A stretch of DNA of 49,589 bases, taken from the NCBI GenBank assembly GCA_947259645.1, contig CAMYND010000011.1, positions 1 through 49,589 of the forward strand. Direction: 5' to 3'. Both the position numbers and the translations under genes were made by a program. Numbering within the stretch: the first letter of the stretch is position 1; the number at the start of each line of letters is the position of its first letter. Under the pieces are notes generated by a model. It saw nothing but the letters and a program-made list of their open reading frames with translations, was not told the origin of the DNA and did no database searches. The stretch comes from Thermodesulfovibrionia bacterium (GTDB lineage: Bacteria > Nitrospirota > Thermodesulfovibrionia > UBA6902). Below, piece after piece: positions 21,440-45,742 of the stretch.

Positions 21440-21625
21440 AGGGAGGATCGCCTGCCTTGTTTGTGATAGGAATCAAAACTTTTTCCGACATTCGAGAATT
21501 AGGGAGCCAGCGTAAAGTAAGTGTTGTGCGCCCGAAAGGGATTAGGCCTGATCTTACTTTCAAGGCACCCACCTGTTTTTACAGGGATTGAAGTTTTATT
21601 CTACACGGCAAGGTGGGTATTTAAG
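21440..21625 (+). ncRNA. ssrS: 6S RNA
   Basis: 6S RNA mimics an open promoter and sequesters housekeeping RNA polymerase. The sequence folds into the family's long hairpin. CCTGCCTTG (21451-21459) pairs with CAAGGTGGG (21609-21617) as the closing stem. AAAGTAAG (21514-21521) pairs perfectly with CTTACTTT (21553-21560). An apical CCC-GAAA-GGG hairpin follows, and CCTG (21572-21575) pairs with CAGG (21582-21585) on the 3' side of the central bubble. The AAGGCACCCACCTG stretch on the 3' side resembles many 6S RNAs. Its place just upstream of rarA also fits, since 6S genes lie near rarA in other bacteria such as Bacillus. The ends are approximate. Confidence 0.8.
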
Positions 21626-33676: not shown

Positions 33677-35071
<1,395 letters not shown>

Positions 35072-35298: not shown

Positions 35299-37191
35299 AT
35301 GGATCGTTACGTTATTCTCGGCACAGCCGGACACATTGACCACGGAAAGAGTGCCCTTGTGCATGCTCTTACCGGCACAGACCCTGACCGTCTCAAAGAG
35401 GAAAAAGAACGAGGTATAACCATTGACCTTGGCTTTGCTGATCTTGCCTACCCTGATGGCCTGAAAGTCGGGATCGTTGATGTTCCCGGGCATGAACGGC
35501 TCATCAAGAACATGCTTGCAGGAGCAGGCGGCATCGATATTGTCCTCATGGTCATTGCCGCGGATGAAGGGATCATGCCTCAGAGCCGGGAGCACCTTGA
35601 TATATGCAATCTTCTCAAGGTAAAACAGGGCATCATCGTGATAACAAAATCTGACCTTGTGGAAGAGGACTGGCTCGAGCTTATCAGCGATGAGATAAGA
35701 AGTTTTGTAAAAGGCACATTCCTTGAAGACGCGGTTATCATGCCCGTATCGTCAGTAACAGGGCAGAACATGGATCTGCTGAAAGAAGAAATACATACGC
35801 TTGCCCTTGAAGTTGACCCCAAACCAATAAGCGGGATCTTCCGGCTTCCTGTTGACCGGATATTCACCCTGAAAGGGTTTGGTACTGTTGTTACAGGCAC
35901 AGCAATTTCCGGAAGCATATCCCTTGACGCAACTGTTGAGATCATACCCGGTGGGCTCAGGACAAAGGTGAGGGGCCTGCAGAGTCACGGTGAGACATTA
36001 AAAAAGGCCTTTGCCGGACAGAGGGTAGCCATGAACCTCCAGGGAGTGTCAAAAGAGGAAGTCCGGAGGGGTGATGTCATAACTGTCCCGGAAAAAATAA
36101 AGACCGCCCTTGTAATCGATGCTGACCTGGAGATGTTGAAGGACTCAGCTATTAATGCCCTCAAAAACAGGAGCCTTGTCCATTTCCATACCGGCACAAC
36201 TGAACTGGTGGCCAGAATTGTGATGTATGACAAAGAACTGTTAAAACCGGGAGAGCGTGCATATTGCCAGTTCCGCTTTAAGACGCCCGTTGCTGTAATG
36301 GCAGGCGACAGGTACATTATAAGAAGGTTTTCTCCTCTCTTAACGATTGGGGGAGGAGAGATCCTTGACACCTCGCCAAAACGAAGGAAAAGGGATGAGA
36401 GGATAAAGGACCTTGAGGTTTTTGAACAGGGAAGCCTCCGGGAAAAGCTTGCGATAAAAATAATGCAGAGTGGTTTGCATGGTATTTCCGAGGCTGAACT
36501 GGCAGGCTGGATCAAACAGGAACTGCCGGAAATAAAAAGCACGATCAAAACGCTGCTGAAAGAAGGTGAACTAATCCAGTGTGAAGGAAGGCTCTTGCAT
36601 AAGGTTGTCCGCGATGATTTTTCAATCAGGATAACAGCGGAGCTTGGTGAATTTCACAGGGCTCACCCGCTCAAACCGGGCTTATCCAAAGAGGTGCTGA
36701 AGAATGAGTTCAGGGGGGTTGAACCCAGAATAGTGGAGACACTGACCCGCATGACAGAGGGGGTTGTACAGGAGAAAGAGCTGCTCAGGCTTGAATCCTT
36801 TAAAATATCTCTCAGTGAGGACAAGATGCAGTTGAAGGGTAAAATAATGAAAGTCCTTGAAGATGCAAAGTTCCAGCCCCCATCTAAAGATGAGCTTGCC
36901 TCCACAATATCGATTAACAAAGAGGAGGCCGGCGAACTCCTGAAAATCATGGCGACTGAAAAGAGCCTCGTCAGAATAAACGACTCTCTCTATATATCAA
37001 TGTCAAACCATTCGGAGATGATGGAAAACCTGAAAACTTTTTTTTCTGAGAAGAATGAGATGACTGTCGGCGATTTCCGTGACATTCTGGGGACCTCCAG
37101 AAAGTATGCCATCCCTTTCCTTGAGTACCTGGACAGCAACAAGATCACACTCCGCGTCGGGGAAAAGAGAAAATTACTCTCCAAGAAGTAA
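35299..37191 (+). CDS. selB: Selenocysteine-specific elongation factor SelB
   Basis: SelB carries Sec-tRNA(Sec) to the ribosome at UGA codons marked by a SECIS hairpin. The 630-residue protein starts with an EF-Tu-like GTPase domain ([31 protein letters not shown]). Beta-barrel domains and about four C-terminal winged helices (from about residue 370) follow; the winged helices bind the mRNA hairpin. Full length suggests a functional decoder. Two genes nearby have in-frame UGA codons and are its likely clients. Confidence 0.97.
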
Positions 37192-38329: not shown

Positions 38330-38872
38330 ATGACCAACAATTATGACAAAGCTTTCGACTCAGAAGTTCTTTTTTCTGACAATTCATCCCAGCTTCTGAG
38401 CAGCTGGTGGGAGAGGAAGCCGTTGCTTCTCGTGTTTCTGCGCCACTTCGGTTGACCCTTCTGCCGCGAGCAGGCCGTGCAGTTGCACAAGGCAAAAGAG
38501 CGGATTGAAGGGGCAGAATTTCAGGTTATCCTTGTCGGCATGGGGACCCCTGAGAATGCTGAAGAATTCAGGAAGAAATATGCTTCTTCCTTCCCCATTA
38601 TCTGCGATCCTGAAAAAAAACTATACAGCGCATTCGGCCTGGGAAGGAGTTCTGTCACATCAATGGCATCACCCTCTGTTCTTGTCAAAAGTCTGAGGAC
38701 AATGATGGAGGGCAACCTGCCCGGAATACCCAGAGAAGATGTTAAGCAGATGCCCGGTGTCTTCATGATTGACAGAGAAGGAACTATACGTTATTCATAT
38801 TATGCTAAGGATGTGTCAGACAATCCTTCGGTTGAGGAACTGATTTCTTTAAAGACGCTCATCAATACGTAG
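38330..38872 (+). CDS. Peroxiredoxin-like (AhpC/TSA, SelL/SelU-type) selenoprotein, UGA = Sec42
   Basis: Reading from ATG 38330 (GGAG about six bases before, AGGAGG further up), the frame runs 180 codons to TAG 38872 and is interrupted only by TGA at 38453-38455. Around it the protein reads L-V-F-L-R-H-F-G-U-P-F-C-R-E-Q-A. In thioredoxin-fold Prx-like proteins this position is the first cysteine of a C-x-x-C site, so the UGA very probably encodes selenocysteine at the redox centre. Downstream are I-L-V-G-M-G-T-P-E-N-A, I-I-C-D-P-E-K-K-L-Y-S-A-F-G-L and G-V-F-M-I-D-R-E-G-T-I-R-Y, typical of the family. A likely role is thiol-dependent peroxide or disulfide reduction in the cytoplasm. A plain annotation would wrongly start at 38477 and miss the active site. 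It lies directly behind selA-selB and the unknown gene. Confidence 0.9.
38453..38493 (+). promoter_or_regulatory. Candidate bacterial SECIS element
   Basis: About 21 bases after the UGA, GCC-GTGC pairs with GCAC-(AA)-GGC around the loop AGTT (38481-38484). The loop lies roughly 26-30 bases from the UGA and has G as its second base. This agrees with the bacterial SECIS description: a short stem, a G within the first two loop bases, and a loop about 16-37 bases from UGA. The fold was made by eye only. Confidence 0.55.
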
Positions 38873-42379: not shown

Positions 42380-42865
42380 TTATCCCTCGACAATACTGTG
42401 GTCATCCCACATAAACCAGTTTCCGGTGTCACTGAGATAGGAATGGGTGTTAGAGAATATGCGAAAGTGTTCTTCCTCTTCAGCGGCCAGCCGGGCAAAG
42501 AGCGTGCGTTCAGCTTCACTTTCCGCTTCCGCGGCTTCTTTGTTGTAAAAGTCAACGCACTCCTTTTCCATGTCCATCGCGATCTTGAAGGCCTCCATGT
42601 CATCCAGGGAGCAGGCTGTCTGGACTCTCATCTGGTCTTTTATGGTTTCCAGAGATGTCTTAACATTATGAATAGGGGTAAGCTTGGCCATATCTATATT
42701 CATATCCTTGACCGCCTGTTTCAGGCTCTCAAGGTGATGCTTTTCGTCCTCAAGGATTGTGAGGAACATTTGTTTGCCGGCCGGGTGGTCGCACCTTTCC
42801 GCGGCGTTCTGATAAAAATTTACCGTGTCTGTTTTCATCTTGATGGCAGTTTCAACAGAATTCAT
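42380..42865 (-). CDS. Rubrerythrin-like ferritin-superfamily protein
   Basis: The 161-residue all-helical protein carries two halves of a diiron site (T-I-L-E-D-E-K-H-H and A-A-E-E-E-E-H-F-R) plus further glutamates in A-M-D-M-E-K-E-C-V-D-F-Y. It lacks the C-terminal rubredoxin domain of classical rubrerythrin. Such proteins reduce peroxide in anaerobes using outside electron donors. It follows the rhodanese selenoprotein gene by 26 bases with its own AAGGAGG, so the two look like an operon. That supports an oxidative-stress or sulfur-redox context for the pair. Confidence 0.88.
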   Translation of the reverse strand: MNSVETAIKMKTDTVNFYQNAAERCDHPAGKQMFLTILEDEKHHLESLKQAVKDMNIDMAKLTPIHNVKTSLETIKDQMRVQTACSLDDMEAFKIAMDMEKECVDFYNKEAAEAESEAERTLFARLAAEEEEHFRIFSNTHSYLSDTGNWFMWDDHSIVEG

Positions 42866-42891: not shown

Positions 42892-43209
42892 TTATTCCAG
42901 CGGGAAGCCAGCTTCTTTCCAGCCTGTTACGCCTCCAGCGAGGGCCTCTGTTCTGTTAAATCCGGCGTCTCTGTACTTTGCTGCCTGACCGACAGCGCTT
43001 CCTTCATTCGGTCAGGCGCAGTAAAAGATTATTTCCTTGTCTTTTAAAAGCGAAGAGGACTTTGCCTGAAAGCCGCTGAGAGAAATTGCACCATCGAGGT
43101 GCAAACTTCTGAACTTTTCCTCGTTGTCATAGGCACAGACAAGAAGCGCTGCGCCGGACTGGACCTTCTCCCTGGCCAGTTGGGCTGATATACGTACAAT
43201 ATCGTCCAT
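42892..43209 (-). CDS. Rhodanese-domain selenoprotein, UGA = Sec66
   Basis: The frame from ATG 43209 (AAGGAG eight bases upstream) runs 106 codons to TAA at 42892, broken only by TGA at 43014-43012. The junction reads E-I-I-F-Y-C-A-U-P-N-E-G-S-A-V-G-Q-A-A-K-Y, then A-L-A-G-G-V-T-G-W-K-E-A-G-F-P-L-E, the normal end of a single-domain rhodanese. Related rhodaneses have Y-C-A/S-C-P-N-E, so the UGA falls on the second cysteine of C-x-C and probably encodes selenocysteine, next to the active-site cysteine (C64). It probably transfers sulfur or selenium, or reduces a thiol. A plain annotation would stop at 43012 and lose the C-terminal third. It is upstream of the rubrerythrin-like gene. Confidence 0.9.
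42983..43017 (-). promoter_or_regulatory. Perfect 10-bp hairpin spanning the UGA, SECIS candidate
   Basis: On the minus strand GCCTGACCGA (43017-43008), which contains the UGA, pairs perfectly with TCGGTCAGGC (42992-42983) around a 15-base loop. Having the UGA at the base of a stem-loop recalls E. coli fdhF. The loop begins closer to the UGA than usual for a bacterial SECIS, so a refolded inner hairpin may be the true element. Confidence 0.55.
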
Positions 43210-43301
43210 AGTGTATCTCCTTATGATTCATCCTGCATTGTGGTTTGTTCTGCCTTGTTTTTCCTGTAGCACTACTATAATTCATGCGATCCGATCATAA
43301 C

Positions 43302-44781: not shown

Positions 44782-44791
44782 CTGGATTGTG

Positions 44792-45742
44792 ATGGGTGAT
44801 AAAATTAAAATCGGTATCAGTTCCTGTCTCCTGGGAAACAGCGTCCGCTATGACGGAGGACATAAGCTCGACCATTACCTCGCCGATACCCTGGGAAAGT
44901 ATGTTGAATGGGTCCCGGTCTGCCCTGAAGTTGAGTGCGGGCTTCCAATACCGAGAGAGGCGATGAGACTTGTCGGTGATCCGGACGCTCCCCGCCTTGT
45001 GACGAGAAGAAGCGGAATTGATCATACGGACAGGATGAAAACGTGGGTCAGAAAACGGCTTAAGGATTTGGAAAAAGAGAACCTGTGCGGATTCGTCTTC
45101 AAGAGCAAGTCTCCCAGTTCAGGCTTGCTCCGGGTGAAAGTGTACGGCCAGTCAGGAATTCCCTCAAATAAAGGCGCTGGAATTTTCGCGGGGGCCTATG
45201 CAAAAGAGTTCCCCCTTGTCCCTGTTGAAGAAGACGGGAGAATTCATGATCCGCAGCTGCGGGAGAACTTTATCGAGCGGATATTTATTTTTCAACGCTG
45301 GAAAGAGCTTCTCAGGGAAAACGCAAAATCAGGAGGCCTTGTAACCTTTCATTCAACGCATAAACTGCTCCTGATGTCCCACAGCCAGAAACACTATTCC
45401 CTTCTCGGGCGCCTGGTGGCGGGGACAAAAAAGCAGGACAGGGGAGAGTTATTCAATCAGTACATAACAGTTCTCATGGACGGCCTGAAGCTTATCGCAA
45501 CAAAGAAAAAGAACACCAATGTTCTGATGCATATTGTGGGCTACTTTAAGAAAAATCTGACTTCAGATGAAAAAGAGGAACTTCTTTCTGTGGTTAACCG
45601 GTATCATGACGGCCTCATCCCCCTGGTGGTGCCGGTGACCCTTCTGAACCACTATGTCCGGAAGTATGACCAACCCTACCTGAAGCAGCAACACTACCTC
45701 AGCCCCCATCCCCATGAACTAATGCTGAGGAACCACGTTTAG
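44792..45742 (+). CDS. DUF523-DUF1722 protein (YbgA family)
   Basis: The 316-residue protein fuses DUF523 (I-G-I-S-S-C-L-L-G-N-S-V-R-Y-D-G-G-H, C-P-E-V-E-C-G-L, K-S-K-S-P-S-S-G) to DUF1722 (F-H-S-T-H-K-L-L-L-M-S-H-S). E. coli YbgA corresponds to the second domain and lies next to photolyase phrB, but no photolyase gene is seen here. The three cysteines in DUF523 (C-L-L-G and C-P-E-V-E-C) could bind metal or a cluster. ATG 44792 is preferred to a GTG one codon earlier. Function is not established. It follows the SRPBCC gene closely. Confidence 0.88.
   Translation: MGDKIKIGISSCLLGNSVRYDGGHKLDHYLADTLGKYVEWVPVCPEVECGLPIPREAMRLVGDPDAPRLVTRRSGIDHTDRMKTWVRKRLKDLEKENLCGFVFKSKSPSSGLLRVKVYGQSGIPSNKGAGIFAGAYAKEFPLVPVEEDGRIHDPQLRENFIERIFIFQRWKELLRENAKSGGLVTFHSTHKLLLMSHSQKHYSLLGRLVAGTKKQDRGELFNQYITVLMDGLKLIATKKKNTNVLMHIVGYFKKNLTSDEKEELLSVVNRYHDGLIPLVVPVTLLNHYVRKYDQPYLKQQHYLSPHPHELMLRNHV

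Follow-up and report, generated by a model that had tools for sequence, protein, structure and literature searches.

The stretch of DNA analysed here (49,589 nucleotides, referred to below as the window) carries the gene of a short rhodanese-fold protein whose in-frame UGA is, judging from sequence comparison, very probably decoded as selenocysteine (Sec). Rhodanese selenoproteins with a Cys-x-Sec (CxU) motif were already known, and the gene belongs to a distinct variant subfamily of them (clade A below) that includes members with two Sec residues. The reading frame starts with the ATG at 43209 on the minus strand, passes through the UGA at 43014-43012 and ends with the TAA at 42894-42892 (Table 1). 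The 105-residue read-through product contains the sequence EIIFYCAUPNEGSA and scores 31.5 bits against the Pfam Rhodanese profile (PF00581), above the gathering cut-off of 22.2, and the match extends past the UGA to the last profile position. A hidden rhodanese selenoprotein with a Cys-Ala-Sec motif had been predicted from this DNA, and the UGA, the frame and the conserved C-terminus down to the TAA were all confirmed; of the two results that were to refute the prediction, homologs with a true stop at this UGA and the lack of any Cys at the aligned position, neither was found.

Table 1. Positions of the rhodanese gene, its key codons and signals, and related genes in the window
Feature	Position	Strand	Observation
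Sec-containing rhodanese gene (predicted)	42892..43209	minus	105 aa through one UGA; same UGA in 20 homologs
RBS-like AAGGAGA 5′ of the ATG	43216..43222	minus	read from sequence
Cys25 (TGT)	43135..43137	minus	conserved without exception in the subfamily; terminates the strand bearing the conserved Asp in other rhodaneses
Cys64 (TGC), usual rhodanese catalytic position	43018..43020	minus	UGA (Sec) in 9/21 subfamily members
Sec66 (in-frame UGA)	43012..43014	minus	UGA in 45/45 subfamily and clade B sequences
bSECIS-type hairpin	42980..42996	minus	6-bp stem, loop GGUCA; third-codon covariation in homologs
Rubrerythrin-like ferritin-fold gene	42380..42865	minus	161 aa; 26 nt past the rhodanese stop; own RBS-like AAGGAGG
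SelA, L-seryl-tRNA(Sec) selenium transferase	33677..35071	plus	615 bits vs cut-off of 268
SelB, Sec-specific elongation factor	35299..37191	plus	370 bits vs cut-off of 242

Purifying selection acts on the frame 3′ of the UGA: pN/pS is 0.14, 0.19, 0.23, 0.37 and 0.38 for the five most closely related pairs, and 189 of the 190 pairs have a value below 1. The bSECIS-type hairpin, whose register relative to the UGA is fixed, shows a UGA-to-loop spacing of 21 nt and an energy of −10.4 kcal/mol over a 48-nt stretch, and it satisfies the published bSECIS rules (loop of 3-9 nt, G in the first two positions, spacing of 16-37 nt, MFE <= −7.5 kcal/mol; PMC13188914). When the codon before this stretch was included in the folding, a longer helix taking in the UGA appeared instead (−20 kcal/mol). 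Pairing between third codon positions was compared with that in shuffled sequences, where the shuffles leave sequence relatedness in: the pair 20-32 was formed in 95% of the 21 clade A sequences vs 65% in the shuffled set (none of 2000 shuffles reached the observed value), occurring as U-A, C-G, A-U and G-C, and the pair 23-29 in 100% vs 87%. This excess was absent from 16 Cys homologs (44% vs 56% shuffled for 20-32, and 75% vs 78% for 23-29). In the members with Sec-x-Sec, the first UGA lies 6 bases 5′ of the second, so that the hairpin is 27 nt from the first, within the range of 16-37 nt. An Rfam search at the UGA gave nothing meaningful.

The Sec machinery (SelA, SelB, SelD and tRNA-Sec) is complete in this genome, itself 3.41 Mb in size and 99.6% complete. 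The tRNA-Sec scores 72.4 bits and has a UCA anticodon; selA and selB are found in the same window, 6-8 kb from the rhodanese gene; and the selenophosphate synthetase SelD (G000 contig C94:2026-2940, L106) scores above its cut-off and contains one in-frame TGA, being probably a Sec-containing protein itself. Among the same-phylum genomes bearing the subfamily (n=15), SelB was above the cut-off in 13. A subfamily genome without SelB above the cut-off, G084 (74% complete), does have a tRNA-Sec; in G350 (91% complete), the genome of the Sec-x-Sec member L014, neither SelB nor tRNA-Sec was detected among the tRNA candidates scored. The tRNA-Sec search scored part of the candidates, and absences in several genomes carry no weight; the lack in G350 is probably due to missing contigs or the limited search. 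The presence of SelB was also considered as a correlate of the subfamily and discarded as uninformative, since almost all genomes of the class (206 of 230) contain it.

Homologs were collected from 396 same-phylum genomes and from a wider set of 84,980 species genomes. All close relatives (about 44-60% identity) have TGA at the Sec66 codon, and a 17-member profile gave 38 matches (E <= 1e-12) in the 230 genomes of the same class, each with one or two TGA codons. After removal of duplicates, clade A comprises 21 sequences including the window protein. They are short, devoid of a signal peptide and carry the invariant Cys25 within C-A/G-Y, and they keep the frame and the UGA across three phyla (the window's own, Thermodesulfobacteriota and Planctomycetota). 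Cys-x-Sec occurs in 12/21 and Sec-x-Sec in 9/21; in the NF041203-side relatives (clade B, n=24), many of which have signal peptides or lipoprotein signals as judged by eye, the numbers are 17 and 7, respectively. Thus, position 66 is Sec throughout both clades, while position 64 alternates between Cys and Sec, with 9-10 changes on the tree. The count of Cys vs Sec at position 66 proposed earlier came to 0 Cys and 21 Sec in the subfamily, Cys being found solely in distant rhodaneses fused to DedA. The Sec-x-Sec rhodaneses have their two UGAs one codon apart (L012-L018, L057, L081; L022, L059, L061, L064, L069, L072, L084). Two of them, L013 and L015 (L094, L099), are fused to a C-terminal YHS-like domain, which in the one fusion of the two that was tested scored 29.3 bits, just below the cut-off of 30.3. 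On the tree, a moderately supported branch (87/77; recovered in 88% of 200 bootstrap trees) separates clade A from the remaining sequences, and the long-branched clade B sequence L060 is the nearest neighbour of clade A. Plasmids yielded only ordinary rhodaneses, with less than 60% identity.

The known CxU family is described by NCBIfam NF041203 ('rhodanese_LYCAU'), the predicted rhodanese-like selenoprotein form 3 (PMC13188914, PMC9312934), which dates to Zhang and Gladyshev 2005, as cited in PMC13188914. The window protein has the Y-C-x-U motif of this model (FYCAU) and matches it over the C-terminal half with 53.3 bits; because this is below the model's own threshold of 115, we consider the protein a relative rather than a member. 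Three other clade A members scored 51-64 bits, and three clade B controls reached 167 and 172 (CxU) and 159 (Sec-x-Sec). Like NF041203, the window protein has a rhodanese domain, a Sec at the second position past the catalytic Cys and a SECIS-type hairpin in the same place; unlike it, it lacks a signal peptide or lipoprotein N-terminus and bears Cys25 on a DVR-type strand. In the motif tables of the reviews, NF041203 has one Sec, and a Sec-x-Sec rhodanese is absent. A literature search combining 'UxU', rhodanese and selenoprotein gave no match, the absence being unproven as the Haft papers defining some NCBIfam models lay outside its scope. Sec at the catalytic-Cys codon is the new element here, and it occurs in clade A as well as in the NF041203-side relatives.

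More distant systems share single traits with the window protein. The DedA-fused rhodaneses with CACPNE (e.g., L023, L025, L026) have a matching loop in which both positions are Cys, and the Cys counterpart motif quoted in the original prediction is indeed real (FCACPNE); in contrast to the window protein, they are membrane fusions with about 30% identity to it and show no SECIS covariation. One DedA-rhodanese fusion, L083, carries Cys-Thr-Sec, in a family that is otherwise Cys-x-Cys among the sequences examined. TsoB (NF045694), a rhodanese/DsbD fusion with UxxxxU, is also rhodanese-related and, like the Sec-x-Sec relatives, has two Sec, but it is a large fusion with another Sec spacing, and the window protein scores 10 bits against its model. 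SelL and other Prx-like selenoproteins have a thioredoxin-type fold and differ in the spacer, which consists of two residues. With their UxxC or UxxU motifs, they set a diselenide precedent for a nearby Sec pair (Shchedrina 2007, as cited in PMC2398784).

The predicted structure of the window protein is a rhodanese fold (pLDDT 90.5, pTM 0.85), and its closest solved structures, with TM up to 0.80, include a beta-lactamase/rhodanese fusion (3tp9), a persulfide dioxygenase-rhodanese fusion (5ve3) and GlpE (1gmx). The canonical rhodanese active-site loop is the Arg-bearing C-R-x-G-x-R, which is not obligatory for every member of the Rhodanese-domain family. Inspection of the window protein sequence revealed no such loop: its CAUPNE retains the Cys, and the Arg and Gly are missing. 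In the model, the strand 59-63 runs into Cys64-Ala-Sec66 and the central strand 21-25 terminates at Cys25; Cys25 may lie spatially close to the 64/66 loop. The back-door Cys of Cdc25 sits on the strand matching that of Cys25. Cdc25 proteins differ in being phosphatases without Sec, and Cys25 aligns one residue before the conserved Asp position, not after it. By analogy with this back-door Cys (PMC4351059) and with SelL-type diselenides, Cys25 is a possible resolving residue.

Because Sec66 is constant, residue 64 swaps between Cys and Sec, and Cys25 is invariant in clade A, residues 64 and 66 are likely to act as a redox pair that Cys25 may resolve. On balance, we favour a single-domain rhodanese-fold selenoprotein that works as a persulfide/thiol-selenol reductase over a plain sulfurtransferase. 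After decoding of the UGA by SelA/SelB/SelD/tRNA-Sec as directed by the downstream hairpin, Cys64, the usual rhodanese nucleophile, would accept sulfane sulfur or an oxidising equivalent. Sec66 would then attack the loaded Cys64, so that sulfide or water leaves as the reduced product and a selenenyl-sulfide forms (in the Sec-x-Sec relatives, a diselenide). The 64/66 pair would be reset by Cys25, an external thiol or both. Given the rhodanese fold, the best guess for the substrate is a persulfide or similar sulfane sulfur; we infer both chemistry and substrate, and no conserved gene neighbour pointing to the latter was seen at the 21 loci. More tentatively, one may suppose that the essential chemistry has moved to an obligatory Sec66 within a three-chalcogen centre (Cys25, Cys/Sec64, Sec66) of a persulfide/polysulfide reductase, which in the Sec-x-Sec form would use a diselenide, with one SECIS for two UGAs. 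The earlier suggestion that a selenenyl-sulfide pair shifts the chemistry to redox is plausible, in view of the constancy of Sec66 and the switch at 64.

Several other explanations should be weighed. A standard ORF listing terminates the gene at the UGA, after residue 65, as would be expected if the UGA were a true stop in a decaying or truncated rhodanese and the downstream similarity a relic; yet the recurrence of the same UGA in the homologs, the purifying selection beyond it, the conserved SECIS-type hairpin and the full Sec machinery make this extremely improbable. A better case can be made for a selenoprotein that remains an ordinary sulfurtransferase, where Cys64 or Sec64 carries the persulfide and Sec66 merely tunes or speeds the transfer. 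The protein keeps both the fold and the customary place of the nucleophile, and Sec rhodaneses of other forms are known with UxxS and UxxG motifs (PMC13188914). However, it is Sec66 and not residue 64 that stays constant, the canonical Arg-rich anion loop is missing, and there is an additional invariant Cys25, so that we rate this reading as possible but rather unlikely.

The location of selA and selB in the window could point to selenium handling, with the protein serving as a selenide/perselenide carrier for SelD or in protection against selenite, and a review (PMC9369223) links rhodaneses to selenium transport. The linkage to sel genes is, however, not conserved, and since the subfamily is confined to a small minority of same-class genomes while SelB is nearly universal there, it is no general part of Sec synthesis. 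A selenoprotein required for making selenoproteins would also be circular, although a Sec-containing SelD is a precedent; altogether, we find this role improbable. Still less probable is a peroxide-defence enzyme partnered with the rubrerythrin-like product of the next gene, as the operon had originally suggested. The two genes lie on the same strand with a 26-nt gap and are likely co-transcribed in this genome, and Sec-Cys pairs of other protein families react with peroxides. Nevertheless, the function of the neighbour's ferritin-like/rubrerythrin domain is uncertain, and the adjacency was seen in the window's own genome alone when its recurrence was checked: a tblastn search across the collected loci (1.5-4 kb flanks) with the rubrerythrin-like protein as query gave no other match, and all-against-all clustering of neighbours at 21 loci with wider flanks placed its gene in no shared cluster. 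The link was rejected as a general feature, and the peroxide-defence claim is left unsupported. No partner is common to the whole subfamily at these loci, and clade-specific recurrences are small; for example, five loci from the window's family share an SRPBCC-like gene.

Other features were noted in the window. A peroxiredoxin-like, SelL-related gene at 38330-38872 (+) has an in-frame UGA giving LRHFGUPFC and is probably the other hidden selenoprotein of the original prediction: its truncated ORF (38477-38872) scores 112.9 vs a cut-off of 120 for NF040769, and the read-through form scores higher (63.5 vs 40.4 bits for Pfam AhpC-TSA). A 2-thiouracil desulfurase (DUF523)/DUF1722 protein with SSCLLG, at 44789-45742 (+), may be the Cys counterpart of the DUF523-type selenoprotein form carrying SxSUG (PMC13188914). 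A 6S RNA is found at 21446-21623 (+), with 65 bits vs a gathering score of 46.4.

CxU rhodaneses are predicted selenoproteins, and because the subfamily falls below the NF041203 cut-off, annotation probably records its genes as coding for truncated proteins. The natural switch between Cys and Sec at position 64 beside a constant Sec66 is a ready-made experiment on the contribution of selenium to rhodanese chemistry, and two UGAs one codon apart 5′ of a single hairpin offer a clean test of one SECIS serving two Sec codons.
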